The position numbers and the translations under genes are program-made. A stretch of 64,000 bases of DNA from Faecalibacterium taiwanense (GTDB taxonomy: Bacteria > Bacillota > Clostridia > Oscillospirales > Ruminococcaceae), in the NCBI RefSeq assembly GCF_036632915.2, contig NZ_CP155552.1:2480001-2544000 (forward strand), in the 5' to 3' direction. Shown piece after piece: positions 25,301-44,426 of the stretch (within the stretch, counting starts at the first letter, position 1; each line of letters opens with the position of its first letter). A model generated the notes under the pieces. It saw nothing but the letters and a program-made list of their open reading frames with translations. It ran no database searches and had not been told where the DNA came from.

Positions 25301-25383
25301 AATAACTTTACATGGAATCCATGGCGAGTGACCTATATGGTTGCTCGCTTTTTCTTTACCCTAAAATCGGAAGGAGGAACGCA

Positions 25384-28300
25384 ATGCCAAACAAAACCGA
25401 AGAATATCTCGCCCTTGTCCAGCGCACGGCCAACGGCCTGACACGTTACTGGGAAAGCTGGACGGACTATCTGACCACCGCATCCCGGCTGTACAAGTAC
25501 CCCTTTGCAGATCAACTCATGATCTACGCCCAGCGCCCGGATGCCACCGCCTGCGCCGACTTTGACATCTGGAACAACCGGATGAACCGCTATGTGCGCC
25601 GGGGTGCCAAGGGCATCGCCCTACTGGATGAATCCAGCGGATTTCCCCGCCTGCACTACGTTTTTGACGTAAGCGACACCGGGGTGCGCCGCAATTCCCG
25701 CGACCCGGAGGTGTGGCAATACAACGACGACCTGAAGCAGCCGGTTTCGGAAATGTTGAGCAAGACCTACGGCATCAGCGGAGAGCGTGTCAGCCAGCAG
25801 CTTGCGGATGTTGCCGGGAAGTTGGTCGCTGATTACTGGGATAACAACGGTGGAGACATCCGTGCCATCGTTGACGGTTCGCTGCTGATGGATTATGATG
25901 AAGCCGGAGTGGAGATGCAGTTCAAGTCCGCCGCCGCCATCAGCGTCACCTACACGCTGCTGGAACGCTGCGGCTTTGAGCCTGCCGGGTGGTTCGACAA
26001 GGACGATTTTCAGGCAATCTACAATTTCTCCACCCCGGATGCCGTCTTTGCCCTCGGCGCAGCCGTCAGCGACATGAGCCGGGAGGTGCTGCGGAACATT
26101 GAGCGCACCGTAAAAACCACCATTCGCCGCCGCAATGCAGAAAGGAGCCAATATGAATTTGAGCAGCAGGAACGTGACCTACTCGACCGTCGGGGACTAC
26201 CAGCTCCCGAACCTGACCCTGAACCAGCCCCGGAAGCCGCTGGGCAGGTACGGCAGGCTGCGCCGGACGTATCTGATGCAGCAGCGCTCGGTGCTGTACC
26301 ACACGATGCTTCTGAACGGGAGCCTGTATCCGCACCTGATGGAGGTAGAGCAGACGGCAGAGAGCCGGATGCAGCAGACCATGGCGCAGCTTCTGAAACA
26401 GGACCCCGCCCCGGACAAGGAGCAGAACCAGATGGCGTGGGTGCAGCACATGAACAGCCTGAAAGCACAGGCCGAGGAACTGGTGCTGACGGAGCTGATC
26501 TACAGCTAAGTTTTCTGGATGCGAACATCCCTACCGAAGCCCAGCAAATTGAAACCATCGACCGAGCGGAGAGCGAAAAAACGCCCTCCGCTTTTGTTTT
26601 GTCGCAGGCTGAAATTGAGAACGAGTTGCGTAAGCACGGTTCGGGATTTACGGGCGGCAAGCAGCGCATTATGGCGCTGTACCAGACCCAGCCTGACCGC
26701 AAACTCCGTGCCAAAGCACTGGCAAAGGAGTACGGCATTGGTGGGCATTCCCACGATTTTCTGGACGGAAGCCGAGGTTTTGTGAATCACGACTGGAAGG
26801 GACTGGAATTTGACCACTACCCCGACCACCAGAAAATTACCCTGAAATGGGCGCAGGTGGAACAGTATATCGACCTGATGATCCAATCCGACCGCTACCT
26901 CACCGACAAGGAGAAGGAACAGCGTACTGCCAGACAGGAAGCTGAGTGTCAGCTTCCGATGCTGGATGGCACTGTTGCCGCAGAGTACACTGCTCTGAAA
27001 GAACAGTATCCCAACACCCTCGTGGGCTTTGAACTGAACGGTAACTATCTGTTCTATGACAAAGATGCCGTTGCTGTGGAGCGGATTCTGCGCACCAATT
27101 TTCTGTCACAGGAAAATGTGCTTGGCAAAGTCAAAGTAACTGGTTTTCCGAGTGAGCAGTGGGCAGCAGAATCTAAAAAGCTGTGGGCAGCGGGCAACAA
27201 CGTCTATCTGGCTGGCTTGAACGAAGATGGCTCCCACCACCAGGCAAAATATCTCCGGGAAGCGGATTATCTGCCAATCGGCAGCATCATCAAGCTGGAT
27301 GGCCGGGATTTTCGGGTGGAACACGTTAATTTTACGTTCAAATCCGTCAGCTTGCAGGACATGGAGCTGACGAAAAACAGACTGCCCATTTTCCGCAATG
27401 AGCATCTTCCGCACATCAGAGAACTGTACGAAGAACAGCAGGCCGCAGCCATTGATCTGGTTCCCGAAAAAGAGGTCAGCTATAAGGTCGGGGACGAAGT
27501 TGTAGTAGACCTTCCCACCAGAACGATTGAAGGAACAGTAGGCTATATCGGTGATACCGATGTGCGCATCGACACCAGTGCACACGGGCAGTCGTGGGAT
27601 AACGAAGTTATCAACAAACGTCAATTCGAGGACGCTCTGCGGCAGGTTGAGCCGGAACTTTCCGATGAGGAACTGGACGAACTGCCCATCTCTGCTGTGA
27701 TGGACGGAAAGGTGCAGACCTTCCCGGATGCTGCTGCCTTGGATGAAGCCCTGAATGCTGAACCTGCGCCGGAGCCTGCTGGGAACTTCCGCATCACAGA
27801 CGACCATCTGGGCGAGGGCGGCGCAAAGCAGAAGTATGCCCGGAACATTGAAGCCATCCGCACCCTGTTCAAATTGGAACAGGAGCATCGTGGTGCCACC
27901 GCCGAGGAACAGCAGGTGCTTTCCCAGTATGTAGGCTGGGGCGGTCTGGCGGATGCTTTTGACCCCGGCAAAGATAGTTGGGCGAAGGAATATGCGGAGC
28001 TGAAAGGGCTGCTTTCCGAGGACGAATACGCCGCCGCCCGTTCCAGCACCCTGAACGCCCACTACACCAGCCCCACCGTTATCCGTGGTATCTACGATGC
28101 CGTGGAGCACATGGGTTTCCAGTCTGGCAATATTTTGGAGCCGTCCATGGGTGTGGGCAACTTCTTTGGAATGCTGCCGGACACCATGCAGGATAGCCGC
28201 TTATACGGCGTGGAACTGGACAGCATCACCGGGCGCATTGCGAAAAAGCTGTATCCGCAGGCAGACATTACTGTGGCGGGCTTTGAGACCACCGACCGCC

Positions 28301-30184
28301 GTGATTTCTACGATTTGGCGGTGGGCAACGTGCCATTTGGTCAGTACAAAGTCAACGATAAGGCGTACAACAAGCTGGGATTTTCCATCCACAACTACTT
28401 TTTCGCCAAAGCCATCGACCAAGTGCGTCCGGGCGGCGTGGTGGCGTTCGTCACCAGCCGCTACACCATGGATAGCAAGGACAGCACCGCCCGCAAGCAC
28501 ATGGCAGAACGTGCTGATCTGCTGGGTGCAATCCGTCTTCCGAACAATGCGTTCCGTGCCAATGCTGGCACAGATGTTGTCAGCGACATTATCTTTTTGC
28601 AAAAGCGTGACCGCCCTGCGGACATTGAGCCTGCATGGGTGCAGCTTGGCAAGACCGAGGACGGATTTGCCATCAACCAGTATTTCGTAGACCACCCGGA
28701 GATGGTGCTGGGCGAGCTGACCACAGAAAGCACCCAGTACGGACGGGAGGAATTGACCGTTGCCCCCATCGAGGGTGCAAACCTTGCCGACCAGCTTGCC
28801 GAGGCAGTGCAGCATATTGAGGGGCAATACACCGAAGTTGAGGTGGAAACACCAGATATTGCGGATGCCGAAAATGAGAAGCACATTCTCCCGGCTGATC
28901 CCGATGTAAAAACTTCTCCTACACTGTGGTGGACGGAGAGGTGTTCTACCGGGAAAATTCCGTGATGACGCAGGTGGAGCTGTCCGGCACCGCCAAGGGC
29001 GTGTCACCGGTATGGTGGAGCTGCGGCAGATCGTCAACGAGCTGATTCAGCAGCAGTTGGAGGATTCCCCGGACGAGGACATCAAGGCAACGCAGGAGCG
29101 TTTGAACGCGGCCTACGATGCCTTTACCGCAAAGTACGGTCTGTTGAACGACCGCAAAAATGGGCGACTATTTGAGCAGGATTCCTCGTATTATCTGCTC
29201 TGTTCGCTGGAAAATCTGGACGAGCAGGGACAGCTGAAATCTAAGGCGGATATGTTCTCCAAGAGGACGATTCGCCCGGAACGGATTATCACCAGTGTGG
29301 ATACTCCCAGTGAAGCACTGGCAGTATCTATGGGAGAGCATGGCAGAGTAGACTTGCCCTATATGGCAGAACTGCTCGGCACTCCCGGCGAGTATGACCG
29401 CATCACCACCGAACTGCAAGGCGTGATCTTCAAAGACCCCAGTGCAGACCCGACTGACCCGGAAGCGGGCTGGCAGATGGCAGACGAATATCTTTCCGGT
29501 GATGTCCGTGCGAAACTCCGCTTTGCCCGACTTGCCGCCGAAACAAATCCTGAATTTGCAATCAACGTGACTGCACTGGAAAAGGCACAGCCCAAAGAAC
29601 TGGAAGCATCCGAAATTGATGTGCGGCTGGGTGCAACGTGGCTTGCCCCTGAAATTATCCAGAAATTCATGCAGGAGACCTTTCAGGTTCCGTACTATCT
29701 GCGCCGTGATGTGAATGTGCGGTTCTCTCCGTATACGGCAGAATGGCGTGTGCAGGGAAAATCCGCATTGGGGCATGGCGATATTATGTCCACGGAAACC
29801 TACGGAACGCACCGTGCCAATGCCTACAAGATTCTGGAAGATACGCTTAATCTCAAAGATGTCCGCATCTATGACACAATCGAAGATGCCGAGGGCAAAC
29901 CAAAACGCGTGCTGAACAAAAACGAGACCACCCTCGCCCAGCAGAAACAACAGGCAATCAAGGATGCTTTTGCAAACTGGATTTGGCAAGACCCCCAGCG
30001 GCGTATCTCACTGGTGAAGCAGTATAACGAATTATTCAACTCCACTCGTCCCCGCGAATACGATGGCTCGCATATTCATTTCGTGGGGATGAACCCTGAA
30101 ATCACGCTCCGAGAACATCAGAGGAATGCCATTGCTCATGTGCTTTATGGCGGTAATACGTTACTTGTCGTACATAATTCCTAG
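25384..30184 (+). pseudogene. ICE methylase-helicase polyprotein, truncated and frame-broken
   Basis: The start ATG 25384 follows AAGGAGG. The N-terminal domain (residues 1-280) begins with the segment EYLALVQRTANGLTRYWESW and is followed by a Pro/Glu/Ala-rich linker. The methylase part has NILEPSMGVGNFFGMLP and the AVGNVPFGQYKVND motif (IV-like). Helicase homology begins with ITLREHQRNAIAHVLYGGNTLL and then stops at 30163, where unrelated DNA joins. The SF2 Walker A and all later motifs are missing. One-base losses at AAAAA (28908-28912) and GGG (28997-28999) also break the frame. The full-length family exceeds 2,000 aa and is linked to protecting or processing transferred DNA. Confidence 0.85.
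26153..26509 (+). CDS. tnpV: TnpV family protein overprinted on the helicase linker
   Basis: A 118-aa protein in frame +1 relative to the methylase-helicase gene and wholly inside it. It matches the TnpV family along its length: TVGDYQLPNLTL, KPLGRYGRLRRTYL, HTMLLNGSLYPHLMEVEQTAESRM and the C-terminal AEELVLTELIYS. The ATG at 26153 has AAAGGAG 6 nt upstream, unlike a chance frame. The helicase frame through the same DNA is a low-complexity Pro/Glu/Ala/Asp linker. TnpV is encoded on Tn4451-type elements, and its function is not established. Confidence 0.75.
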   Translation: MNLSSRNVTYSTVGDYQLPNLTLNQPRKPLGRYGRLRRTYLMQQRSVLYHTMLLNGSLYPHLMEVEQTAESRMQQTMAQLLKQDPAPDKEQNQMAWVQHMNSLKAQAEELVLTELIYS

Positions 30185-30301
30185 AGAAAGAGAAAGCATA
30201 AACAAGCTGTAATTCGTGCGTGTTCTAAAAATATCAGAGAGGTTCTGCACGGCAGTTGCCCAAGCTGCCCCACGCAGGTAAATATCTCTCGTCAGTTCCA
30301 C
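30161..30301 (-). pseudogene. Last gene of the defence-like operon, truncated at the ICE junction
   Basis: Downstream of the DndD-like gene, GAGGAGGG is followed by GTG at 30301 (overlapping its stop) and 46 codons: VELTRDIYLRGAAWATA, VQNLSDIFRTRTNYSL, FMLSLSLGIMYDK. A TAA then arises exactly where the sequence joins the ICE helicase (about 30163). The start and RBS look real. The end looks like a truncation of a longer gene. Its place after a dndD-like gene recalls the dndD-dndE order, but homology to DndE cannot be shown from this fragment. Confidence 0.55.
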
Positions 30302-32247
30302 AAGAATCCCTCCTCTACATGAGCCACATTCTTTTCCTCATTGCTCTGGATTGTCCATACAGAGCCGATGCTCTCTTTACTGAACACTTCCTGCAAATCA
30401 TCCTTGGAAAACAGGATTACCTGCGGAGCAAATTGAGGGAGTTCATCGACAACATTCTGGCGCTGAATCATATCCAGTTTCGAGAATGGACCGTCCAAAA
30501 CCAACGGATATTCTTTTCCTTTGAGACTTCCCTCACTTTGAAGCATCTTTAGAATGCCGCCAATGTATGCAAACGAAACGACCGCAAACTGTCCTTCTGA
30601 CTTTGACTCATCATTGTAGCTATCCGTAATCCGAACAGAAAACTCTGGAGTGACAGATACTTTTCTCTGGCTTGTCAGCATACGGTTGATAAGATCCTGA
30701 ATATTTATCTCAAGTTTTTGGCTAAAGGCCAAAGACTCCTTCTCCAGCTGACTCTGAAATCCTTCCGAAACAGTTTTCAAGATTTCAATTCTACGCTGTG
30801 CAATCTTTCCAGCCTGACTTTGCTTTGTCTTTTCGTCAAATTCGTTCATTTTTTCTTCAGAAGCGCATTCCAAGCCTTAATCTTTGTTGAATAGTCTGTA
30901 AGTCGCTTATCAAGTTCTCTGATTTCCTGCTCTGCCTGCTGCCGCTGTACAATCAGGTCTTCAACATCAGCACTCTTTTTTCTTCCTCGTCGAGTTGACG
31001 GATTGCCTGTTCACAGGCTTCAGCTTCAGCATTGTTATGGGATACTGCAATGATTTTTGCATCAATAGTACCCTTATCGTATCCCTTTCCCCACAATCTA
31101 GCCGTTTGAACAAACTCATTATAGAGATTGGTATACGATTTCGGAGGTAGCATATCCAAAAATCCTTCTAAGTGCTTTCGCTCATCCTCTCCTAATGGTC
31201 TTCCACAAATGCACTCTGTGGTACTTTTGGATAGGAGATAGTGTAAGAGCCTTTTCTGCAAACCGGCAGGGAGCTTATTCTGAGCGATTTTTAGATTGAT
31301 TTTATTCTTCGCATCATCAACAGATTTTGAAATCAGCAGCGGAGGAAACATATCCATTACCGCATCACCAAACTGTTTTTTGCTTTCATCGGCATTGCTC
31401 AGGAACACATCTCTCTGACGTTTCAATTTACGCCGCTCTGCCTCATATTCTGCCTTTGATTTATGCTTTCCGATCTGTTCCGATACGCTCTGAATAGCCT
31501 GCTGAAGTTCTGATTTACGAGTATTATCTTTTTCGAGTGCATCTTTCAGTCGTCCAATTTGGGATTGAATCCCTTCAATGTCCGTTTTCAATGCTTTTGT
31601 TTCACTATCACTTGCAATCGTGCCTTTGCTCAAAAACAGCTTTCCCAACGCCGTTGTCTTCAAATCATCTCGACCAATATCATTTAGAGCTGCTTCAATT
31701 ACATCAAGGTCAAACATCGAATAAAGTGCCGACTTCAGCTTATCAGCCGAATCCCTCCCTTTAACGCGAAGGTCGGCAATCATGCTCTCGCCATCAAAAA
31801 AGAAATAATCGGAAAGTCCAGAGGGAATCAATTTTTCAATAACATCTCGTGGGTTATCCACTCTGCGCCAGTTATGATCCTCATCCTCTACACTCACCGA
31901 AAAATCTTCCGCAACCTTAACAGATTCCTGCAAACCTTTTTTATAGGTATACATCCGCCTTGCAGAATACTTTTTCCTTCGTGCTCAAAGTCAATGCAGC
32001 CTAAAACCGGGAATTCCTCTCCAAGAGCAGCTTTGCTTTCATACTGATGATTGTAAAGTCTATCAGTGGTAGTTTTATTGAAATGAACTTTACCATAAAA
32101 GACCCACTGGAACAGCTGGTGCAAGGTGGTTTTGCCATCACCGTTTCTGCCATAGATGATTGTCACCTTTCCGTCTGTTGAGCAACGAATCTCTCCATGA
32201 TCCTTAAAATTTCTGAAGTTTTCAAATTCAATTTTGCTGATCTTCAT
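30292..32247 (-). CDS. DndD/Rad50-like SMC-type ATPase (frame broken three times)
   Basis: A protein of about 650 aa when three one-base losses are repaired: TTTTT 31971-31975, TTTTTT 30976-30981 and AA 30861-30862 (plus-strand bases). Walker A is GRNGDGKT (33-40). A long coiled coil follows, with a zinc-hook-like ECICGRPLGE near the middle. A C-terminal ABC signature (KSEGQFAVVSFAYIGG) and Walker B (YPLVLDGPFSKLD) follow. This is the DndD/SbcC-like plan of an ATP-driven DNA-binding or nicking component. The ATG overlaps the 55-aa gene upstream. Unrepaired, the operon's ATPase would be dead. Confidence 0.8.
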
Positions 32248-32395
32248 CTGTTACCACCTTCTCAAGCTCTCCCAAGATTGAGTTTACAATACTGCTTTTG
32301 CTCTGTGTCCCAGAAATCAATTTGTTTCGTAGCGCAGTCTGCTCCAATTCCCTTATGTACTCTGTCATGTGGGCTACTGCCTCCTGATCATTCAT
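32228..32395 (-). CDS. Small 55-aa operon protein
   Basis: A 55-aa frame whose ATG overlaps the helicase stop (GAATGA) and whose stop overlaps the ATPase start, so both neighbours are coupled to it. The sequence is helical and acidic: EAVAHMTEYIRELEQTALRNKL, then SIVNSILGELEKVV. It is a likely genuine small subunit or adaptor of the system. No family is recognised. Confidence 0.65.
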   Translation of the reverse strand: MNDQEAVAHMTEYIRELEQTALRNKLISGTQSKSSIVNSILGELEKVVTDEDQQN

Positions 32396-34436
32396 CTACA
32401 TCAACCTCCATATCTTCATAGTCATAAGCATTTACATCTTCCTCAGTCAATCCATATTCCATCAATCGACCGTTCAAATCATCCTGAAGTTCATTCCAGT
32501 TCAGTGCGAGGTGTGCATATTCTCTATATCGGCGCAATTCAATTTTCGCCCATGTACTCATATCGTTAGGCGGCAACACAATGACATCATAGATTTTTGC
32601 ATACTGCTTATTCTTATACAATCGAAGGATACGACCTCTACGTTGCACGAACTCACGATAATCGTCATTGCTTGATAAAATCAATGCACTTTTAATCGAC
32701 GGGATATTTATGCCCTCATCCAAACAGCGAATTGCCGCCAACGCAGTAATTTCTCCCTTATTAAAAGCGTCTACCAACTCCATACGGTCATCCATGCTTT
32801 CAGTCGCTGTAAATTGACTTGCCTTGTACTCATGTTGAGCCAGTACCTTTTTTATAGCTTGGATGTGTCGGAGTTCAGCACCTGTTTGATTATCAAAGAG
32901 TTTTCCATCACCGCAGTAAACCACTATATGATCTTTCTCATCAATTTGGTCAACAATTCGGTCGATGTTTTCCATTTTCTCGCTCGACATAGAAATCACT
33001 CTCAAACGACCTCTGAGCGACTTCACGAGCAAATCCGGGTTAATGCACCTTCCATTCTTGAAACAGGATAATATTTTTTGATTGAACGATCGGAATTGAG
33101 CAACTTCAGAATCTGTTGCATTCACATAAATCGGATAGTAATAATATGGAACCAGAAATCCTCGTTCCAAGGCGCTTTCAATCGGAAGACTAAACACCTG
33201 TCCGCCGAAGAACTTCATAAGTTCTTGTCCTTTTTGTGCCGAGCTTCCGCTGAAAGGTGTCGCACTCAATCCGAGCATATACTGAAATTGTTTATGCAGC
33301 GCATCCGGTCGCTCTGTAAAACGATGTGCTTCGTCTACAATCAGCAGCTTCTGCTCTCTTGAATATCCAAGAGTCTTGTTAAAACGTTGCATCTTAAACG
33401 ATGCAATCGTAGAAATAACAATAATCTGTAGGTCTTTCTGATACTTCTTGCGAATTATCAAATCCGAGAGTTGACTTTCCCATTTTGCATTTTCCGAGGA
33501 CACCATAACAATTTTTGCATCTGGAAACGCCTTTATTACGTCATCTGCCCATTGGCGAACCAAATGTTTGTATGGCGCACAGATTACGACCATCGCAGGG
33601 TGCTGTTCTAATAATTTTTTTGCAGAAAAAATTGCTGTCCAAGTTTTTCCTGTACCAGTTGCCATAACATAAAAGCCATGGTAGTCATTTGCAACCCATG
33701 CTGCGATGGCTTCTTCCTGATAATCTCTAAGTTTAATAGGATCTTTAGCATCTTCCGCTTCAGTTTTTTTGTTGTGAATAATCGTAATCAAATTTTCTTT
33801 TGCGGACTCACTATAACTCAGGACATTAACATATGGATTTTTCCCTTGCCAAAGGGATTCAAACTCGTTTTCTTCCTCCTCAATTACATCATTTTCCGTT
33901 TCGTCCCAGCTCTTTACTACACGAATTTTCTCATAGTTGTTTTGATAGGCATTGATGCTTGAATTGGCTGAGCCGAAAAAGACGATAGCATTCCCCTCAA
34001 AGTCTTTTATAATACCTAGTTTATCATGGTAAATTCCAACAGAAGTCAATGTTGCGATCTTGATGTCTAATGTGCCTGAAGCGATGAGGTCAACCAACAA
34101 CTGTAACTTCACCTCATCAAACTCTTGGAAACTACTCATAAAGTCGCGCGTTGCCGCATCCGTTATAACCTTATCTCTTTTTTCATATCCAAGGTTGATT
34201 GCCTGAATATCTTCTTCGCTTAACTGCGGACTTGCAATCAGCTGAATTTTTCCACCATTTCGGAACAGAGACACAATTCCATCCATAATGGGGAGAAACA
34301 CACTGGATGAAAAAAAGCCAACACTTCTCTGGTAGGACTTTGCATACCGCAACGCTGGAACAAGAAACGCTTTTGGAATATTATCATCCCCGTAGCTGAT
34401 ATAGCTGCGTTTAATGTCCAGATTTTTTAATCCCAT
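32388..34436 (-). CDS. PLD-domain SF2 helicase (defence-like)
   Basis: A 682-aa fusion. Residues 1-200 form a phospholipase D-like nuclease domain with one HxKx4D motif, IYHDKLGIIKD, and VFFGSANSS. Residues 230-640 form an SF2 helicase with LRDYQEEAI, Walker A MATGTGKT (about 263), IVDEAHRF (DEAH box), LSATP and the motif VI QRRGRILRL. PLD-helicase fusions occur in several restriction-like defence systems and in this case probably couple DNA or RNA translocation to cleavage. It overlaps both neighbours by a few bases and is intact. Confidence 0.88.
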   Translation of the reverse strand: MGLKNLDIKRSYISYGDDNIPKAFLVPALRYAKSYQRSVGFFSSSVFLPIMDGIVSLFRNGGKIQLIASPQLSEEDIQAINLGYEKRDKVITDAATRDFMSSFQEFDEVKLQLLVDLIASGTLDIKIATLTSVGIYHDKLGIIKDFEGNAIVFFGSANSSINAYQNNYEKIRVVKSWDETENDVIEEEENEFESLWQGKNPYVNVLSYSESAKENLITIIHNKKTEAEDAKDPIKLRDYQEEAIAAWVANDYHGFYVMATGTGKTWTAIFSAKKLLEQHPAMVVICAPYKHLVRQWADDVIKAFPDAKIVMVSSENAKWESQLSDLIIRKKYQKDLQIIVISTIASFKMQRFNKTLGYSREQKLLIVDEAHRFTERPDALHKQFQYMLGLSATPFSGSSAQKGQELMKFFGGQVFSLPIESALERGFLVPYYYYPIYVNATDSEVAQFRSFNQKILSCFKNGRCINPDLLVKSLRGRLRVISMSSEKMENIDRIVDQIDEKDHIVVYCGDGKLFDNQTGAELRHIQAIKKVLAQHEYKASQFTATESMDDRMELVDAFNKGEITALAAIRCLDEGINIPSIKSALILSSNDDYREFVQRRGRILRLYKNKQYAKIYDVIVLPPNDMSTWAKIELRRYREYAHLALNWNELQDDLNGRLMEYGLTEEDVNAYDYEDMEVDVDE

Positions 34437-36052
34437 AGATTTTCCTCCAAAATAGAATCGCCATACTCTCCCGCAAGCAACTCGTCAATATCAAAAATCG
34501 GTATTTCTCCTTTATAATCCGGGTCTTTATAGGCATACTCAAACGATTCTGCACACATTTTCCCTTTTGGCGAAGCCAAAGGAATTGCATATCTAAATTG
34601 TTTATTTGAAGCCGCAAGATCAATTTTGTGAGACCACTTTTTTAGAACGCTGTACACAAGCCAATCCGTCCATGGAACATTAACTTTAGGAAGTTCTCTC
34701 AAGCCAATTATCTTATAGATTGGTGTTGTTTCTTCAATCTCACCGACAACAATATTTTCAACTTGCTGCGCAATCTGTTCATCCACGCCAATAGATACTA
34801 TTCTCATCATCTTCTGATCGCTAATCATCAAATATTCATCATTGCAGCTGTCAATAAAATCCAATGTAGAATTTATTACAAGATGGTTTTCATTTGCAAA
34901 AGAACTCAATTCTTTTAGATCGTAGGATTCATGTGAGTAGACTTCTTCGCGCAGAACATCCGATGTTCCGGTAATTTCCACTCCCTGTTGTGCAATAAAT
35001 GGTCTTGTGAACTTATAGTCATCTCTGAAAAGATACTCGATCAAGCTATATGCCGAGAACGGATAAAACACACCATTTCTTGTAAAAATTTCCGGGCGTT
35101 CGATCGAAACCAAATTATAGAGTTCTTTAATGTGATGCTGTGCCCCATCAGCAATAATTGCGTCAATGTTTTGTTTCAGATACTCCCTCTCGCTCTCACT
35201 TATGCGCAGTTTACTGGCATGGATATATTTGCCAAAGCAGTTGATGATTTCAGGACTTTCAATCGCAAACTGAATCACAATATCGGGCACACCGGGAAAA
35301 TGTTTTTGAATTTGAGCACGGTCAACCTGAAAAGCTGCTTCTTTAATAAAATCAATGATAGTGGGGTACAGAGAAGTGTCCTCACCATCTTTGGACAGAT
35401 AATCTCGTGTGAAAACAAACTCATCCCCATAGAGTTCATGTAAGATACCCTGCAAATAGTATTTGTTATCGACTCCCTCTTTTTCCAAATCTTCCTTAAA
35501 AACTTCATACAGCGTATTCATAAGGAAGATCGAAGATTGGCTTTCCTCAATATAGCTGTGAATCCGATTTGCAAGTTCCTTGGAAATATATTCTTTTTGT
35601 TTTAATTTATAGCAGCCCTTTCCACAGAGCACTCCGATTCGGGAAACTGCTGCAACTAATGCATGGTCATTCACAGGAAGGTTGACATCGCCATATTTTT
35701 CTTTTATGTTATCTCGGAACGTTTTAATTTCTGTTGCAGAACCCGTGCAAAAGCCGTTTGGGTATTTTTCTGAAAGAATGTCTCGATAAATCGAAGCCAG
35801 CGACAGACGAGAACGATGGTATGTTTCACCTGTTAATTTGTACAACCCATCAATTTCTTTAATAACAAGATCCTCTGGAAGACCCATCTCTATCGCATCA
35901 GTAATATAGCTGACCATCTTTTTTGATGTAAACACATCAGGAAGCGATTCAATATATGTCGAAATCTTTTCAGGGATGCTATTATTTCCTACAATTAGAA
36001 CATCTAATCCCTTGTCATAAATGAAATTTCCGTTGTGGCTACCTTCCATCAA
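34427..36052 (-). CDS. Large unknown operon protein (possibly continuous with the upstream gene)
   Basis: A 541-aa protein with no motif I recognise. The N-terminal 150 residues resemble repeated helical DNA-binding or adaptor modules (TSKKMVSYITDAIEMGLPEDLV, LKEIDGLYKLTG-like), and the C-terminal part is mixed. Its start overlaps the stop of the upstream gene by 4 bp. Adding one T in TTTT (plus-strand AAAA, 36051-36054) would fuse both into one protein of about 946 aa (REFFF-L-MEGSHN), so two genes or one long gene are both possible. Confidence 0.65.
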   Translation of the reverse strand: MMEGSHNGNFIYDKGLDVLIVGNNSIPEKISTYIESLPDVFTSKKMVSYITDAIEMGLPEDLVIKEIDGLYKLTGETYHRSRLSLASIYRDILSEKYPNGFCTGSATEIKTFRDNIKEKYGDVNLPVNDHALVAAVSRIGVLCGKGCYKLKQKEYISKELANRIHSYIEESQSSIFLMNTLYEVFKEDLEKEGVDNKYYLQGILHELYGDEFVFTRDYLSKDGEDTSLYPTIIDFIKEAAFQVDRAQIQKHFPGVPDIVIQFAIESPEIINCFGKYIHASKLRISESEREYLKQNIDAIIADGAQHHIKELYNLVSIERPEIFTRNGVFYPFSAYSLIEYLFRDDYKFTRPFIAQQGVEITGTSDVLREEVYSHESYDLKELSSFANENHLVINSTLDFIDSCNDEYLMISDQKMMRIVSIGVDEQIAQQVENIVVGEIEETTPIYKIIGLRELPKVNVPWTDWLVYSVLKKWSHKIDLAASNKQFRYAIPLASPKGKMCAESFEYAYKDPDYKGEIPIFDIDELLAGEYGDSILEENLWD

Positions 36053-37266
36053 AAGAAAAATTCTCGTGCGTGTAAAGGAAAATACTTTTCAATATCCTCA
36101 CGATGGATTACAGGGTCTCCACCTTTTTCTGCTGAAACTTTAGCAATAAATCGTACCTGACTTTCCTTTCTCTCGAATATTCTAACAGCCTTACTTTCAA
36201 TCTGGCGAATTCTTTCTCTGGTGATGCCATGCTTGCTGCCAATTTCTTCCAATGTGCGTCCATGTGCTCTTAAATGAAGAACATCCTTGACATTATCTCT
36301 CGGACACGAAGCGTCCCAAAGCTCCTGAGCTTCTTGGGTGAGATCAAATGTGCACCAAGACAAGAAACTTTTCAAAATAACATAATCGTTATAATCCAAA
36401 TCATTTATCAAATCGGGCGTTTTCAGAATTGTTGAGTTTGCAAAGAATCGACAAAGAATATCCTGTGTTTCCTTATCGTCGGTATATGCAACAATATAAT
36501 ATTTAGCCAAGCTATTTTTTCTGGACGAAGGAATTCTATCAATAACCTCATAGATTTCCTCTTTTCTTTTTTGTCTTTTTGAGAAATCCAGAAGGCAACC
36601 AATAATTAAAGCTACACTTTGTGGATTATTTTTGCATTGCTCTAAAATATCACCATCCAGAAGTTTATATCCATCCTCATATATTTTCACTTTGTCAGCG
36701 TACTGTTCCGGGAAACCATCTTCTTCCGCAAAGGAAAAATCACCATTAAAAATTCGATCTCTGTACTGATAAAAATATGCCTTTTTCAAAGCCGAAGCAC
36801 TTCTATCATCATACCTGAGCGACTTAGTATCCGCTGCATCCGATTCTTTGCCCATCAGATTACTTCCATTCGCCTTAGAAAATCCGTTTTTTAATTCAGA
36901 AACGAACTGATCAACCTCTGACAAAGAAAGTTTTCCAAAGCCCTTAATATTGCACAGATCACTTTCTGTACAATTCAGTAAGTCTTCTACTGTAAACACA
37001 CCGATTTTTTTAAGGCAATTTGCAGTCCTAACAGAAAACCGAGGCGTATCTATTTGTATCAAGCGAAAATTATCTGGGTCTAAACTGTTTTTTTCGCCGT
37101 AGGTCATTTCGACTTGATGCACATTTATTCCATGACGACTCAGGATTGCAATAACTTCTCGACCTCTTATATTCAAGCCATGCGCAATATCCACAATCGG
37201 CTTTCCTTTTTTATACAACTCAACGATTGTCTCTGGGGTAAACTGTTCCATATTATTGTATTTCAT
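36049..37266 (-). CDS. Alpha-CTD/HhH plus sigma-region-4 domain protein
   Basis: A 405-aa protein with two transcription-type modules. Residues about 75-120 resemble the RNA polymerase alpha C-terminal domain (VRTANCLKKIGVFTVEDLLNC, then SDLCNIKGFGKLSLSEV, helix-hairpin-helix). Residues about 335-380 match sigma-70 region 4 (RAHGRTLEEIGSKHGITRERIRQIESKAVRIF). An N-terminal HTH (TIVELYKKGKPIVDIAHGLNIRG) is also visible. This combination inside a defence-like operon is unusual. It may bind the operon promoter, host polymerase or foreign promoters. Confidence 0.75.
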   Translation of the reverse strand: MKYNNMEQFTPETIVELYKKGKPIVDIAHGLNIRGREVIAILSRHGINVHQVEMTYGEKNSLDPDNFRLIQIDTPRFSVRTANCLKKIGVFTVEDLLNCTESDLCNIKGFGKLSLSEVDQFVSELKNGFSKANGSNLMGKESDAADTKSLRYDDRSASALKKAYFYQYRDRIFNGDFSFAEEDGFPEQYADKVKIYEDGYKLLDGDILEQCKNNPQSVALIIGCLLDFSKRQKRKEEIYEVIDRIPSSRKNSLAKYYIVAYTDDKETQDILCRFFANSTILKTPDLINDLDYNDYVILKSFLSWCTFDLTQEAQELWDASCPRDNVKDVLHLRAHGRTLEEIGSKHGITRERIRQIESKAVRIFERKESQVRFIAKVSAEKGGDPVIHREDIEKYFPLHAREFFF

Positions 37267-37280
37267 CTACTGCTCCAGCT

Positions 37281-38282
37281 TCAATTAGAATGCAGAAATA
37301 TTTTTTGCTGTTCTATAATGGACTCAACCATTTTCCGATACTGGAAAACAACACTTTCAGGGGATCTAATAACGATTCTGCCGCCCCACCCGAAAATCCA
37401 TCTGAAAAAATTCGGACTTGCGCTGACCGTTACCTGCGCGGAAAAATGATCATCATCATACCTCTCAGTATGAACATCTATTCCAAACTGATCTATGATA
37501 TATTTCATCAGAGCATTTTCAACTATTAGCGTGATTTTTTCCGACTTATATGTGTCAAACATTTGAAACACTCCAAGTGCATACTCCGAAGTGTCAAAAT
37601 CTGCTGGCATGGGATAGGCATCCTCACTCAAGATTTCCGGTTGACGCGCTATTCTGTCTATACGGAATGTATGAACGCGGTTTCTCGCTTCATAAAAACC
37701 TACAACATAATAATAGTCCCCGTTCCAAATTAATGAATATGGGCTTATGCAGTAAGGCTTTCCCCCATTTTTTATGATAAGATTCTTTTGCTCGTCGTAT
37801 TCAGTATAATAGAAAGAAATTTTTTTGCCAGAATTAATTGCGGAATTGATTGCATCAATTATGTAATACGTCTTTTCATTTTCGGATTTAACCTTACTTG
37901 TATTGATAAGGTTTCGCCTGAGTTCTTCCTTGCTTTCCTCGCTTGCAAGGCTTGTGAGTTTTTCTACAAGTGCCTCGCTCTTTTTTGCAGATATGAATCG
38001 GGATGCTTGAACCGCATCTATTAGAAGTTTTAATTCTGGGAGATCAAATGTTCGATCGTTGACATAATACTTCTTGCTACGCGACCTGATTTCTACAACG
38101 TCTATTCCACTGCTGCATAATAGTTCGACATATTTTGAAACAGTCGTTCGATGCATTCGGATACCATACATGGAATCAAAATACTGAAGAATCTGATTGG
38201 TTGACAGAGGATGATCTACATCCGAATAGCGCATAAGTATTTTGTATAGGTACAGAACTCGAAGCGATGTTTCATTTTGCAT
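37281..38282 (-). CDS. WYL-domain transcriptional regulator
   Basis: A 333-aa regulator: N-terminal winged HTH (LSTNQILQYFDSMYGIRMHRTTVSKYVELL, about 23-55) and a WYL domain (about 150-230) with ISPYSLIWNGDYYYVVGFYEARNRVHTFRIDRI, followed by a WCX-like C-terminal extension (NFFRWIFGWGGRIVIRSPE). WYL proteins commonly control phage-defence loci and sense nucleic-acid ligands. It is the first gene of the operon, 14 bp upstream of the next gene, and has a promoter and palindrome upstream at 38342-38401. Confidence 0.88.
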   Translation of the reverse strand: MQNETSLRVLYLYKILMRYSDVDHPLSTNQILQYFDSMYGIRMHRTTVSKYVELLCSSGIDVVEIRSRSKKYYVNDRTFDLPELKLLIDAVQASRFISAKKSEALVEKLTSLASEESKEELRRNLINTSKVKSENEKTYYIIDAINSAINSGKKISFYYTEYDEQKNLIIKNGGKPYCISPYSLIWNGDYYYVVGFYEARNRVHTFRIDRIARQPEILSEDAYPMPADFDTSEYALGVFQMFDTYKSEKITLIVENALMKYIIDQFGIDVHTERYDDDHFSAQVTVSASPNFFRWIFGWGGRIVIRSPESVVFQYRKMVESIIEQQKIFLHSN

Positions 38283-38341
38283 TTAAGATTCACGCCCCTG
38301 CCATCTTCATTTCGCACAAAATTGACAATACTATATTTATA

Positions 38342-38401
38342 ATAATACTTCATTCTCCACAACAATGCAACCATGAGATGTCATCATATGGTGACATCTC
38401 A
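38342..38401 (-). promoter_or_regulatory. Promoter and 28-bp palindrome of the defence-like operon
   Basis: On the minus strand TTGCAT (38365-38370), a 17-nt spacer, then TATTAT (38342-38347), about 60 bp before the WYL gene. Just upstream of the -35 lies a perfect inverted repeat, TGAGATGTCA-N8-TGACATCTCA (38374-38401), well placed as the binding site of a dimeric regulator such as the WYL protein. Confidence 0.65.
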
Positions 38402-38445
38402 CAAGTAAAGTTGTTCAGCATTGCTTTATTAGACACCATATTGTT

Positions 38446-38676
38446 TTACGGCAAGGCTTTTTCCTCGTCGGATTCTGCCTGGGGGACATTTTTCAAAATC
38501 CTTTTATATTCTTTATACAACCGTCTTGCCCTTTCTGGAAACTTTCCGTTAGCATCCCGTAGCGCGTCAAATTCCCTCTCAGCGTATCCCTGCCAGTACG
38601 AACTGAGGTTTCCTTCTCTCGCATCAATTATGCAATCCTCTATTTCAGAGTAACCAATTTCATCGTAGTCAAGCAT
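38446..38676 (-). CDS. Small acidic protein, unknown
   Basis: A 76-aa protein that starts MLDYDEIGYSEIEDCII behind GAGAGGTGG (ATG at 38676). It contains YWQGYAEREFDALRDANGKFPERARRLYKEYKRIL. It is transcribed in the same direction as the WYL operon, 160 bp upstream, with the palindrome in between. No family is recognised. It may belong to the imported defence segment or to the ICE. Confidence 0.5.
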   Translation of the reverse strand: MLDYDEIGYSEIEDCIIDAREGNLSSYWQGYAEREFDALRDANGKFPERARRLYKEYKRILKNVPQAESDEEKALP

Positions 38677-38829
38677 TTTCCACCTCTCAGCGACACATTT
38701 GATTTTTTCGTTCTCATACAAACAGTCTATCACGAATGACTGATTATATCAATTAAAAATTGTAGATAGAATCGTCCGGTTTTGAGCCTTCTCTCGACTA
38801 CAATAAGATAGAGAAGGAGGGCGGCAGTT

Positions 38830-39137
38830 ATGTACGAGAAACTTTTTCAAAGAGGCTTGCTGAACTACGGATACAAAAAGGTGTCTCCGCAAGGGATATG
38901 AGTCTTTCCCTCGGACAGAATCCCGGATACATTCGTGCTATCGAGAGTGGATCAGCGTTTCCTGCCATGTCGAGCTTCTTCTATATTTGCGAATATCTCA
39001 ACGTAACTCCGCAAGAATTTTTTGATTTCAATGAAGACCATGCAGATGGAATCAATGCACTTGTAAATCAACTCGATAAACTTGATGAAGAACAGATTCA
39101 AACTCTCACAGCCTTTATAAAGACTATTGTTAAGTAG
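38830..39137 (+). CDS. XRE-type HTH regulator with one frame break
   Basis: With one T added to TTTTT (38843-38847) the ATG at 38830, behind GGAGGG, reads through as MYEKLFSKRLAELRIQKGVS and ARDMSLSLGQNPGYIRAIESG. This is a classic Cro/C1 helix-turn-helix (about 8-60), with LNVTPQEFFDF and a short helical C-terminus. As sequenced, only the last 79 codons are open, from a weak start at 38898. It is a small regulator typical of ICE control regions and is probably functional if the break is an error. Confidence 0.75.
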
Positions 39138-39155
39138 GTAAGAACAACAGCAAAA

Positions 39156-39185
39156 ATGCCCACCAGCTTTCAAGCCGGTGGGCAT
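39156..39185 (-). terminator. Terminator between convergent genes
   Basis: ATGCCCACC/GGTGGGCAT stem. On the minus strand it is followed by TTTTTG, so it ends the zinc-ribbon transcript. Confidence 0.8.
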
Positions 39186-39189
39186 TCTC

Positions 39190-39390
39190 TTATTTGTACC
39201 GTATTACAGGTAGCTGCTTTACTTTGCCGCTAACCATTTTACGTTCAAGTGCAAAGACCATATCTGGAGTGCGTTCAAAGAAACCAATATCACGCTTCCA
39301 GCTTGTTCCGCACTTGCAATGAAACAGACCTATGAACTGCTGCTTCATCTTGCGCCCGCAATTCGGACAGATACGCTTGCTTGCGCCCAT
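39190..39390 (-). CDS. Zinc-ribbon ICE protein
   Basis: A 66-aa basic protein with two metal-binding pairs, CPNCGRKM and FHCKCGTSW, followed by FFERTPDMVFALERKM and a basic tail. It is a short zinc-ribbon protein of a kind common in gut ICE regulatory regions, with unknown function. It lies 6 bp downstream of the coiled-coil gene and shares its transcript, ending at the terminator 39156-39185. Confidence 0.75.
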   Translation of the reverse strand: MGASKRICPNCGRKMKQQFIGLFHCKCGTSWKRDIGFFERTPDMVFALERKMVSGKVKQLPVIRYK

Positions 39391-39396
39391 AACGCA

Positions 39397-39732
39397 TCAC
39401 TGGAGCTTGGCAAGGATTTCTTCAGCAGTCATACCACTGGCCAACAGCTTCTTCAGCACATCCTCGGCTTCGCCTTTCTTGGCTTCCTCTGCTGCCTTTG
39501 CTTCAACAGCAGCCTTCTTTACTTCAGCCTTCGCCAGATCTTTAGTCGCAGCCTTTAGATTGGCCTTTTTGGTTTTCAGCTGCGCCTTCAGATCATCGAT
39601 ATTGGCAATCAGCGCAGCAACCTCAGATTCGAGTTTTTCCTTTTCTGCGGCCTTTTCTGCAACGACTGCTGCATAATCAACGGTAACTTTTACGGTACGG
39701 GTCTTGTTCTTGCTTCCCTTGGGTCTTGCCAT
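39397..39732 (-). CDS. Lys/Ala-rich coiled-coil protein
   Basis: A 111-aa protein with an AT-hook-like basic start (MARPKGSKNKTRTVKV), then a continuous coiled coil (about 25-90) rich in Ala, Lys and Glu and a small C-terminal helix (ASGMTAEEILAKLQ). It resembles small nucleoid-like proteins of ICEs. DNA binding is inferred from the RPKGSKNK start. A GGAGG site precedes the ATG. It is upstream of the zinc-ribbon gene. Confidence 0.75.
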   Translation of the reverse strand: MARPKGSKNKTRTVKVTVDYAAVVAEKAAEKEKLESEVAALIANIDDLKAQLKTKKANLKAATKDLAKAEVKKAAVEAKAAEEAKKGEAEDVLKKLLASGMTAEEILAKLQ

Positions 39733-39919
39733 GATAATGTCCTCCTATACGGTGGAATGATTTGGTACTTATAAGTATATTTCTATATAGTTAAAATTGC
39801 AATAGACAATTCGTACTGCCTAAGACATTGATGAAATATTGTCATCTTTTCGTCAATATACGCAGGTGCGTACACGAAAAATTTCAATATCCGTTACTAT
39901 CATGCAAAGGAGGCGCAGC

Positions 39920-40185
39920 ATGATAGTAAAAGATGTTATTGAGCTGTCTGTAAAGGACGCTGTGGCGATTCGTTTCAAAGAGATTTGTGACCAGCGGGGA
40001 TTTGTCCAAATGAACTTGCTGTCCGTTCCGGTGTTACGCCATCTACCGTTTACAGTATGCTCGATTCCTCCCGACACAGTGTTTCTATCGGGACGATCAA
40101 AAAACTCTGCGACGGCCTTAACATTTCTCTTGGAGAGTTTTTCTCCTGCCCTTTGTTTGATGATCTTGAGCAGGAAATTCAATAG
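39920..40185 (+). CDS. XRE-type HTH regulator with one frame break
   Basis: The ATG at 39920 follows AGGAGG. Adding one A at AAA (40008-40010) gives an 88-aa helix-turn-helix protein: AVAIRFKEICDQRGFVQNELAV, RSGVTPSTVYSMLDSSRHSVS, IGTIKKLCDGLNISLGEFFS. As sequenced, the frame changes in the middle of the HTH. It is a Cro/C1-type regulator typical of ICE control regions. One of several cases in which a single homopolymer base decides the annotation. Confidence 0.7.
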
Positions 40186-40245
40186 GAGTACTTACACTCC
40201 CTTGATTCGATTTCGCCAACAACCTGACCGGATTTGAGGAAGCCT

Positions 40246-40683
40246 ATGCCTACGATTAACTTGAAAGAGCATTATCCCACCACATACACTGAGGATTTTT
40301 TTGCTGAAGTTTCGGAGGAAATCCATCAGTTATTTATTGATTTTAAGCATCAAGAAGATGCTTTTCTACGTCAAGTAAGCCGATATCATGCATATCATTC
40401 ACTGGATGATCCGACTTTTCCAGTAGAGCAATGTGTCCTTTTTCAGAAACCGGCTCTCGTGGATTCTGTCGAACAGCGGCATTCTGCTATGAGCATTTAT
40501 GAAGCCATTCTGTCCCTCCCACCCAAACAGGCCAAACGGTGCTACGATCACTATTATCAGGGATTTAAGCTATCAGATATTGCGCAAAAAGAGGGTGTAA
40601 CAGCAGGAAGTGTCTCGGAGTGTATTAAATCCGCTTTATCTACACTTCGAGAAAGATGCAACTTCTTTAACTTTTGCGATTGA
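40246..40683 (+). CDS. Sigma-70 region 4-like protein
   Basis: A 145-aa protein whose C-terminal half has a region-4 helix-turn-helix: LPPKQAKRCYDHYYQGFKLSDIAQKEGVTAGSVSECIKSAL. The N-terminal part lacks region 2, so it is more likely an ICE regulator of the sigma-like family than an active sigma factor. The ATG at 40246 is preceded by GAGGAAG. It lies between two XRE regulators in the ICE control region. Confidence 0.8.
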   Translation: MPTINLKEHYPTTYTEDFFAEVSEEIHQLFIDFKHQEDAFLRQVSRYHAYHSLDDPTFPVEQCVLFQKPALVDSVEQRHSAMSIYEAILSLPPKQAKRCYDHYYQGFKLSDIAQKEGVTAGSVSECIKSALSTLRERCNFFNFCD

Positions 40684-40818
40684 ACCCTAACTTTTATCCG
40701 TTTTTTGTCCTATATAATATAGGGATGTTTTTCTCTATCATGGAGAGCGCACCGTGCATTCTCCATGCTCCGCCCCATAACATTGCCATAATCGACAAAG
40801 GAAAGGACGAAGAAAGCA

Positions 40819-40962
40819 ATGAAAAGAAGATTGATTGAGTACGAACCCAGCCCCGGCAGTCAAGCGAACTGCCAGTGTCGAATGTCCGCCCGCGCTCTGA
40901 CCCTGTGGTGTGGCCTGTGGCTGCACTCCTGCATGGTCGGAGGGCTGGCTTATGTACTTTAA
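40819..40962 (+). CDS. Small 47-aa protein coupled to the XRE gene
   Basis: A 47-codon frame from ATG 40819 (GGACGAAGAAAG upstream), with a basic N-terminus (MKRRLIEYEPSPG), three Cys residues and a hydrophobic C-terminal half (LTLWCGLWLHSCMVGGLAYVL). It overlaps the start of the XRE gene at 40952 by 11 bp, and the XRE gene's RBS is inside it, which suggests translational coupling. A -10-like TATAAT lies at about 40713. No family is recognised. Confidence 0.5.
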   Translation: MKRRLIEYEPSPGSQANCQCRMSARALTLWCGLWLHSCMVGGLAYVL

Positions 40963-41272
40963 TCCTTACGCCGCTGGTTATAGAATCCAGAAATTACGCA
41001 AAGCACATGGACTGACACAAGAAGAAGCCGCAATCAAACTGAACATTAGTGATCGGCACATGAGAAGTCTGGAAAAAGGCACTTATGCACCGCTGGACTT
41101 GTTTGTTGAGATTGCAGTACATTTTGATGTCACTCTGGATTACCTCATTCTTGGGCAAGTTGAAACAAAAACTGAGCTGGCACTCAGTAAAAAAATCAAT
41201 GACCAGAAGCAGGCTATGAAATCGTTGAGGGAACATCTTCTGGCATTTGCAATGGAGATTGAGGTCGAATAA
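40952..41272 (+). CDS. XRE-type HTH regulator
   Basis: A 106-aa Cro/C1-family protein: IQKLRKAHGLTQEEAAIKLNISDRHMRSLEKGTYAPLDLFVEIA (about 12-55) is a full helix-turn-helix, followed by DVTLDYLILG and a helical tail. The ATG at 40952 follows CGGAGGG. It is the standard repressor-like gene of ICE control regions. The gene is intact and followed by a strong terminator at 41284. Confidence 0.85.
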   Translation: MYFNPYAAGYRIQKLRKAHGLTQEEAAIKLNISDRHMRSLEKGTYAPLDLFVEIAVHFDVTLDYLILGQVETKTELALSKKINDQKQAMKSLREHLLAFAMEIEVE

Positions 41273-41283
41273 CAAATCTACGG

Positions 41284-41315
41284 GAAGTCGGAGAGTGATC
41301 TCCGGCTTCTTTTTT
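41284..41315 (+). terminator. Terminator after the XRE gene
   Basis: GAAGTCGGAGA/TCTCCGGCTTC stem with a GTGA loop, followed by TTTTTT. Confidence 0.9.
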
Positions 41316-41346
41316 GTTGTCAAAAAATCAAACGTGTCTATGTGAT

Positions 41347-41370
41347 ACCGGAAGGAAAGCTTCCGGTTTT
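41347..41370 (+). terminator. Second hairpin upstream of structured RNA copy B
   Basis: ACCGGAAG/CTTCCGGT stem with a GAAAG loop, then TTT and further T-rich DNA. Confidence 0.6.
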
Positions 41371-41524
41371 GCTGCTTTTTCAGTTGAAAAAGCCCAAAAA
41401 GCGGAAGGAATGCATCCTAAAAAGGCAATCGGTTTTCAGGTACACTATGGTCACAGCAAGGGCAACACCCCAGACGGGGAGAAACCCAAATCTGGAAACC
41501 GTACCTTGAAAATTGAATATCATT

Positions 41525-41743
41525 CCCTCGGACAAAATAATGAAACTTCCGTAACTCGCGGCCCGGTCATAAAGAAGACGGGGTGGCTGAAGAAGCCAAT
41601 GTGGAGTGGGGTGCAAGTCCCCACTTACCGAGGTGTATTCCAAATCCAACGGGGGTCGAGGACAAATAGGTTGGAAAAACTTAAAGCAAAACTTCAAAGC
41701 CCACCACCGGGATTCTTCTGAACCACGGCGATGGGCTTTTTCC
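41525..41743 (+). ncRNA. Structured RNA, copy B (unknown family), with terminator
   Basis: A closing stem CCTCGG (41526-41531) with CCGAGG (41628-41633) encloses the conserved core (41546-41622): CTTCCGTAACTCGCGGCC, CGGTCATAAAGAAGACGGGG, the hairpin GGCT-GAAGA-AGCC, and GGGG-TGCAAGT-CCCC, whose 7-nt loop resembles a T-loop. A GTCGAGGAC box follows, as in copy A. The unit ends in an imperfect AGCCCAC/TGGGCT hairpin and TTTTT (about 41697-41743). It lies in a gene-free gap between the XRE and zinc-finger genes. Confidence 0.7.
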
Positions 41744-43794: not shown

Positions 43795-43830
43795 GTCATT
43801 TCCCTGCTTATGGCAGATTTCCTTTTCACT

Positions 43831-43866
43831 GCAAAAGCCGTCCTGCTGGGCGGCTTTTGCTACATA
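43831..43866 (+). terminator. Hairpin followed by TACATA (copy 6)
   Basis: Stem GCAAAAGCCG/CGGCTTTTGC with a 10-nt loop (43831-43860), followed directly by TACATA (43861-43866). It lies 37 bp after the DUF6551 gene. Confidence 0.65.
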
Positions 43867-43896
43867 TTACAAAGGGGCTTGGTCGTTATCGTTTAT

Positions 43897-44289: not shown

Positions 44290-44327
44290 CAGACGAAAAA
44301 ATCACAAATGGTAAACTCGCAATTTTG

Positions 44328-44372: not shown

Positions 44373-44426
44373 TGGCATTCAATGGCATCTGGAAAGCAAT
44401 CACTCATAATAGAAAAGAGGTACAAT

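Follow-up and report, generated by a model that had tools for sequence, protein, structure and literature searches.

A truncated PbeABCD locus of Faecalibacterium taiwanense and the alphaCTD, sigma region 4 and winged-helix protein encoded ahead of pbeA

We analysed a 64,000-nt window from the single-contig, 2.96 Mb genome of Faecalibacterium taiwanense (GCF_036632915.2, contig NZ_CP155552.1, forward strand; G000:C1:2480001-2544000), in which closely packed open reading frames (ORFs) on the minus strand, from 38282 down to 30161, had originally been predicted to form a new seven-gene defence system carried by an integrative and conjugative element (ICE). The locus is very probably a 3'-truncated member of the PbeABCD (CxC ABC-ATPase/DndE) systems, belonging to a Clostridia subtype with the order (WYL)-head protein-PbeA-PbeB-PbeC-PbeD-phosphorothioation genes, and the window copy is probably inactive. 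The head protein, as we call it here, is a large protein encoded directly ahead of pbeA, and its occurrence in Pbe loci seems not to have been reported in the literature searched, the protein family itself appearing not to be new. Below, genomes are numbered with G, loci with L and single proteins with P.

The packed run of ORFs was confirmed, in the order WYL (333 aa), 405 aa, 541 aa, PLD-helicase (682 aa), 55 aa, three ATPase ORFs and 46 aa. Pfam matches above cut-offs across the locus were WYL, RNA_pol_A_CTD, Sigma70_r4, ResIII/helicase/PLDc_2 and AAA_23, and nothing in Pfam scored above cut-off for the 541-, 55- and 46-aa ORFs. The run holds six genes instead of seven (a WYL gene, one gene for a large protein, pbeA, pbeB, pbeC and a cut pbeD), the 405- and 541-aa ORFs being one gene by the evidence of full-length homologues. 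Its features are as follows, with alphaCTD standing for the C-terminal domain of the RNA polymerase alpha subunit.

37281..38282, minus strand: WYL-domain regulator, 333 aa (Pfam WYL, 2.4e-11)
36049..37266, minus strand: head gene, N-terminal part, 405 aa, alphaCTD and sigma-70 region 4 (Pfam RNA_pol_A_CTD, 1.4e-14; Sigma70_r4, 3.3e-9; aligns with the N-terminal part of P0001)
34427..36049, minus strand: head gene, C-terminal part, 541-aa ORF, winged-helix region (96% identity to P0001)
32388..34436, minus strand: PbeA, PLD (HKD) nuclease and SF2 helicase, 682 aa, frame intact (PADLOC PbeA, 3.6e-199)
32228..32395, minus strand: putative PbeB, 55 aa (position, size, alignment)
31894..32247, minus strand: PbeC piece 1, Walker A (PADLOC PbeC, 6.8e-21; 62% identity to L106 PbeC)
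30953..31954, minus strand: PbeC piece 2, coiled coil and CIC hook (PADLOC PbeC, 1.5e-29; CICG)
30292..30873, minus strand: PbeC piece 3, C-terminal ATPase part (PADLOC PbeC, 5.3e-20)
30161..30301, minus strand: PbeD, residues 1-46 only (56.5% identity to residues 1-46 of the L106 PbeD-position protein)

The core genes and their complete relatives

The core of the locus is already known and, as profile matches have it, is PbeA and PbeC of PbeABCD. The match to Pbe goes beyond chance, because the PADLOC PbeA profile spans residues 3-651 of the PLD-helicase and four other genomes have the same order of genes. The PLD-SF2 helicase that had been predicted is present, with the motifs HDKLGIIKD (residue 137), GSAN, GTGKT, DEAH and QRRGRILR; its PLD motif is spaced HxKx5D, not HxKx4D as was claimed, and the spacing is identical in 9 of 9 PbeA proteins compared. 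The NCBIfam model TIGR04095, for phosphorothioation restriction, also matches, below its cut-off. All three ATPase pieces match PADLOC PbeC, so that the CxC of the predicted DndD/Rad50-like ATPase stands (as CIC), spread over three ORFs with three frame changes and not within a single ORF. PADLOC therefore returns Pbe, a match to a named system of the kind that the original prediction had itself set against its claim of novelty, and that claim falls, with the two small ORFs fitting the PbeB and PbeD slots.

The 55-aa ORF is a putative PbeB by position, size and alignment only; it aligns with small proteins in the same slot of four other loci (L106, L175, L176 and L178). PbeB gave no profile match in the window or in L178, and neither PbeB nor PbeD found a library match even in intact relatives. 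The truncated small protein noticed earlier is indeed the N-terminus of PbeD, cut at the junction with an ICE helicase gene: 46 residues are left here, compared with 169-177 aa in the four intact relatives. The kinship of PbeD with DndE rests on PMC10853773 and drew no support from profile comparison here, in which hhalign gave a probability of 0.1 with 4 and 5 sequences only, and the PbeD model was too poor for a fold search (pLDDT, the predicted local distance difference test, 36.7). No DndFGH was found among the best 25 PADLOC matches per protein in a scan confined to eight ORFs of this genome, and no confirmed relative of PbeA was found in viral contigs.

In four other genomes the head protein directly precedes pbeABCD, with dndBCDEA after it in three and a sulfur-transfer pair in one, and the co-occurrence in the same order that had been proposed as a check was found there. 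L106 (G223), L175 (G793) and L178 (G822) each read head protein-PbeA-PbeB-PbeC-PbeD-DndB-DndC-DndD-DndE-DndA, DndA being cut by the end of the stretch in each. DndB, DndC, DndD and DndE of L106 score above NCBIfam cut-offs and the DndA part of L175 matches at 2e-80; the names of the remaining dnd genes in L175 and L178 come from similarity to L106. L176 (G659) reads head protein-PbeABCD followed by a PAPS-reductase-like gene (phosphoadenosine phosphosulfate reductase; Pfam 1.1e-8, weak SspD/BrxP matches) and a NifS-like cysteine desulfurase. PbeA is 60-62% identical to the window copy in all four loci. In L178 the head gene is directly preceded by a WYL homologue (33% identity), and another lies at the far end of a Pbe operon in the same-genus genome G416 (47%). 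A promoter scan upstream of the window's WYL gene gave 4 promoter-like sites against 2.4 in shuffles, which is nothing to build on.

One head protein with alphaCTD, sigma region 4 and winged helices

The 405- and 541-aa ORFs are, to judge from their homologues, halves of one protein of about 943 aa with an alphaCTD, sigma region 4 and winged helices. With the 541-aa ORF as query, 155 homologous proteins were found at E<=0.001 (best 7995 candidates scored, 120 listed); 114 of the 120 listed are 830-944 aa long, most with alphaCTD and Sigma70_r4, and the aligned homologues extend through both the 405- and the 541-aa parts. P0001 (943 aa) is a single chain, 96% identical to the 541-aa part and continuing unbroken into the 405-aa part. 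A 405-aa sigma protein followed by a separate 541-aa unknown was ruled out by these full-length homologues. The frame change that splits the gene adjoins TTTTTCTTTT (coding strand). In one database protein, P0125 (545 aa), a head-gene N-terminus like that of the window is joined straight to a PbeA C-terminus, by internal deletion or as a chimaera.

Both alphaCTD and sigma4 are supported by sequence and fold, the single-domain structure matches coming from VIA-align. The sigma4.2 helix is strictly conserved in the head protein, as are two DNA-contact positions of the alphaCTD, and the DNA-contact residues are strictly kept despite low overall identity among head proteins. A transcription-linked component, as had been predicted, is therefore borne out by sequence and fold, and is kept with pbeABCD in the four other genomes. 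No Pfam match to sigma region 2 was found in the head protein (Sigma70_r4 only), and the 541-aa part had no match above cut-off in Pfam, PADLOC or NCBIfam. A Foldseek search with the whole head model returned no PDB match at E<=0.001, and its best whole-model matches were winged-helix arrays, none significant. Searches of plasmids (E<=1e-30) and phages (E<=1e-20) found no head protein. In four of the five loci the head gene and pbeA share 4-14 nt, and a gap of 2 nt separates them in L176.

Distribution of the head gene

Queries with PbeA found loci in 2 of 61 genomes of relatives (E<=1e-60), 6 of 391 genomes of the class (E<=1e-40) and 6 of 392 genomes of the order of G223 (E<=1e-60), for a total of 12 genomes and 13 loci, own genome included, with the two large samples overlapping. 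G822 (L178) came from the head-gene query alone and lies outside the 13 loci. Sigma-like genes were sought in these loci with head-protein queries and with Pfam on ten chosen proteins, a search that distant sigma factors could escape. An initiation-factor-like gene, meaning a head gene or a full sigma-70 factor, was seen in 7 of the 13: a head gene in front of pbeA in four (G000, G223, G659, G793) and a full sigma-70 factor, with Sigma70_r2 and r4, in three (G416, G463, G721). Neither was seen in the other six (G066 twice, G059, G287, G145, G622), and in one of the G066 loci, L145, the contig stops 230 bp upstream of pbeA. The head gene is present in all four non-window loci with about 60% PbeA identity (G822 included) and in none at 30-46%; it therefore marks a subtype, not the whole family.

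The full sigma-70 factors (L151 8481-9638, L185 13622-14710, L186 3016-4212) belong to a second Pbe clade. The modification genes of L186 are Ssp-type, namely SspB (4.1e-60, also Pfam DUF4007), SspC (1.4e-134) and a BrxP/SspD-like gene, with a DndA-like gene in addition. This SspABCD clade resembles the window's locus in that PbeA-PbeC and the PbeD-position gene come after, and differs in having a full sigma-70 factor, and not the head protein, as its initiation-factor-like gene. No sigma factor was seen in L147 or L148, though their modification genes are similar. A DUF4357 protein (Pfam 9.3e-14; L186 4197-4754) adjoins the sigma factor of one of these Pbe loci.

Relatives of the head protein are also found outside Pbe. 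The 541-aa part has a match in 18 of the 391 class genomes, 15 of these at merely 21-29% identity. Among 20 loci from 17 genomes (L106-L125), a relative stands before Pbe-Dnd in L106, beside PDC-M33ABC in L107, L118, L120 and L122, and beside BREX BrxP-BrxC-PglZ in L123. The other 14 have no reference gene as neighbour, many lying amid genes that look like housekeeping genes by eye; PADLOC covered selected neighbours in L106, L107 and L123 only, the remaining loci being compared with a small reference set, so this negative is weak. Identity exceeds 30% in five loci outside the window, namely four Pbe loci and one of PDC-M33 (G303), a system for which our literature search found no paper. The next gene in L118 encodes a fusion of a C5 methylase with an NgoFVII-type nuclease, and that in L122 a C5 methylase. 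An alignment-pattern scan of genome contigs picked up ordinary sigma factors; 80 of its 124 confirmed loci were kept, and these are excluded from all counts. None of the 80 had a tblastn match (E<=1e-4) to PbeA, PbeC or the 541-aa part.

Comparison with described systems

In the available parts of the two principal papers, PbeABCD is a phosphorothioate-dependent block of virus DNA replication for which all four genes are required (Xiong et al. 2019, PMC6459918), and PbeA is an HKD-SF2 protein, PbeB a small protein, PbeC a CxC ATPase and PbeD a DndE cognate, with PbeC and PbeD proposed as DNA scanners and PbeA proposed to act on DNA (Rakesh et al. 2024, PMC10853773). The window shares with the DndCDEA-PbeABCD system of the former the order PbeA, PbeB, PbeC, PbeD, and its relatives adjoin phosphorothioation genes; unlike in that description, PbeD is cut, PbeC is broken, dndC was not found in the genome, and head and WYL genes are added. 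With the CxC ABC-ATPase/DndE-anchored systems of the latter it shares the HKD-SF2 protein, the small protein, the CxC-hook ATPase and the DndE-cognate slot, whereas the partners given there, as far as the available text goes, are methylases, MTaX1 and nucleases, and a protein with alphaCTD and sigma4 is not named. The main text of PMC6459918 has no sigma, RNA polymerase or WYL, and that of PMC10853773 has sigma once, for a DndH variant, and neither WYL nor alpha-CTD. Passages of PMC12839542 and PMC12707154 name no alphaCTD/sigma component of Pbe loci, and such WYL passages as were retrieved from literature naming PbeABCD are about other matters.

Other proteins resemble the head protein in part. 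The MZA sigma factor MzaA (NF041931) is a sigma-70-like protein within an anti-phage system and weakly matches the head sigma4 (3.3e-10). Its matches span more of a sigma factor, the model matching the G463 factor at 4.4e-61, below its cut-off, whereas the head protein lacks a region 2 match and has an alphaCTD. Aravind and Iyer reportedly described, in 2012, bacterial alphaCTD-sigma-HARE-HTH proteins that combine winged-helix domains with features of the alpha and sigma components of RNA polymerase. The head protein differs in having no HARE-HTH match, and no such name turned up for its winged-helix part. These proteins are not known to be linked to Pbe loci. PglW of BREX type 2 gives a weak profile match over the head alphaCTD (1.3e-4) and consists, in the available passages of PMC12839542, of a kinase, then an alphaCTD-like domain, then three winged helices; unlike in PglW, no kinase or NERD domain is among the Pfam matches here.

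Possible roles of the head protein

According to the literature, Pbe attacks virus DNA without phosphorothioate. In our working model PbeC and PbeD would scan the DNA, and PbeA would translocate and act. The head protein may read promoter-type DNA, the -35 hexamer through sigma4.2 and the UP-like minor groove through the alphaCTD. Such reading could add specificity, whether the protein is coupled to PbeA as a subunit that reads DNA or serves the operon as its own transcription switch, and the WYL protein may set expression. In the window, deletion of part of the ICE would have removed most of PbeD and probably the modification genes.

The head protein might be a transcription regulator only, which together with the WYL protein would recruit or block RNA polymerase at the operon promoter and take no part in an attack on DNA; we give this somewhat less than an even chance. 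The alphaCTD and unchanged sigma4.2 recognition helix fit such a role, relatives beside unrelated systems (Pbe, PDC-M33, BREX) are placed as those of a generic regulator might be, and distant relatives lie elsewhere among the housekeeping-looking genes. Nevertheless, at some 900 aa and with a long array of winged helices the head protein is big for a simple regulator, the window and L178 already have a WYL regulator, and the overlap of the head gene with pbeA in four of five loci also argues against it. That overlap would suit a subunit that reads DNA for the Pbe effector complex, steering PbeA/PbeC to promoter-like or unmodified invader DNA, as would DNA-contact residues strictly kept against low overall identity and whole-model matches that are, at their best and below significance, winged-helix arrays. 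We hold this reading, a proposal from sequence and gene context, tentatively and put it well short of an even chance; that Pbe loci with PbeA 30-46% identical to the window's have no head gene counts against it. That the system is truly new and has no relation to Pbe/Dnd is very improbable: the lack of above-cut-off matches for the 541-aa part in the three libraries and the absence of an alphaCTD/sigma4 component from main-text term searches of both Pbe papers would agree with it, but for the core it is already refuted by the PbeA and PbeC profile matches and by four loci in which pbeABCD is complete and sulfur-transfer genes are present.

Initiation-factor modules, as alphaCTD-sigma4-winged-helix proteins in Pbe-Dnd, PDC-M33 and BREX and as sigma-70 in Ssp-Pbe, might be a recurrent, exchangeable anti-phage part that reads cell or invader promoter DNA, tying defence to transcription start sites by phage-promoter sensing or by a private promoter specificity of the operon; we consider this unlikely as matters stand. 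Relatives beside defence loci of two further kinds, and full sigma factors in another Pbe clade, suggest that transcription initiation and phage defence are more widely linked. The mechanism of PbeABCD is disputed in print, between a replication block without cutting (PMC6459918) and nuclease action (PMC10853773), as far as the available texts go, and a conserved extra gene that overlaps pbeA with its -35-recognition helix unchanged offers a concrete handle on target choice or on the switching-on of Pbe. The window copy itself, probably a dead remnant, is of little weight here.

Frame changes

Six frame changes were found, three in pbeC, one in the head gene and two in the ICE helicase gene (near 28908 and 28997). 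In pbeC, split into three ORFs with a short stretch in a further frame between the last two, they lie at or beside six-A runs (A/T runs of six at 31937, 30976 and 30849). An A/T run of at least 5 lies at or beside five of the six, the sixth being at GGG, and such runs cover 348 of the 8122 bases of the locus. Genome-wide sequencing noise is not supported by ORF lengths, local homopolymer errors being still a possibility: in ten 20-kb stretches the mean ORF length was 360 aa, compared with 358 aa in the complete same-genus genome G412, and the fraction of bases in ORFs of at least 250 aa was 0.733, compared with 0.719. The 2.5 kb common to the window and G416 (96.6%) contain two indels, each within a homopolymer.

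That the locus is intact in the living strain, its broken ORFs and the junction at 30167 being assembly errors, is rather unlikely. The run-associated frame changes would suit it, as would a near-identical intact PbeC (P0141; 98.9, 99.7 and 97.3% over the three pieces) and P0065, which at 99% identity over the overlap is unsplit at the head-gene break, P0065 itself being incomplete. ORF lengths equal to those of G412, and so no sign of general noise, argue against assembly errors, as do the frame change at GGG and a junction that is not at a homopolymer of at least 5. The frame changes come either from recent slippage as the locus decays or from local errors in the reads, and the fusion at 30167 is a separate event.

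The ICE, its cargo site and the junction

The window holds ICE conjugation genes (TrbL/VirB6, a VirB4-like TraG P-loop protein, MobA/MobL and a tyrosine integrase), and carriage of the locus as ICE cargo, part of the original prediction, is upheld by these and by a different Pbe operon at the same cargo site of a same-genus ICE. The features flanking the cargo are:

30160..30170, no strand: junction of the ICE helicase gene and truncated pbeD (helicase homology stops at 30167)
25312..30184, plus strand: ICE helicase gene, 5' portion in two ORFs (84% to its intact counterpart in G416, L151)
39155..41707, plus strand: ICE right-hand module beside the Pbe cargo (96.6% to G416 L150 17347-19901)

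Helicase homology ends at 30167 for the same-genome copies L133 and L136 and for G416 (L151), and at 30159 for the same-genome L134; beyond lies pbeD, reversed, and the intact G416 ORF extends 2474 bp (about 824 codons) past the junction. The helicase gene was fused to pbeD by a deletion or rearrangement that removed the intervening DNA, and the phosphorothioation genes were probably among the DNA removed. A search of G000 for dndC with TIGR03183 gave no match, where the same search finds G223 (609.7 bits) and, weakly, G416 (22.9 bits); it also rings in 5 of 14 control genomes, none above cut-off. A G793 DndC query found none in G000, and a DndC-like query of the G416 type gave a 53-residue match only (E=5.3e-4). 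With PbeD cut and no dndC found, protection by the window copy is therefore unlikely. The junction 30-mer was not found in viral contigs.

The Pbe operon of G416 has the order sigma-70 factor-DndC-like-DUF4007/SspB-like-1204 aa-DndA-like-PbeA-PbeC-PbeD-position gene-two ORFs-WYL and is flanked as the window's operon is, by the ICE helicase gene on one side and the right-hand ICE module on the other. Comparison of G416 C14 (L150/L151) with window 26812-41707 gives different Pbe operons at one cargo site in two genomes of one genus; the ICE cargo site therefore takes Pbe operons. The ICE helicase matches at five more sites of G000 C1 (2937838, 2020204, 901448, 843547 and 2774605), one with an internal stop. 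Between the Pbe cargo and the integrase (window 43018-46362) lie a DUF6551 protein, a PemK-like toxin (3.7e-32) and a protein with AAA-ATPase_like and PDDEXK_9 domains. Two serine recombinases with DUF4368 inside the ICE (window 593-2263 and 18556-20193) suggest nested elements, and an AAA_15/AAA_21 ATPase (window 23209-24696), AbiEii-like by Pfam, also lies within the ICE and is a possible further defence gene.

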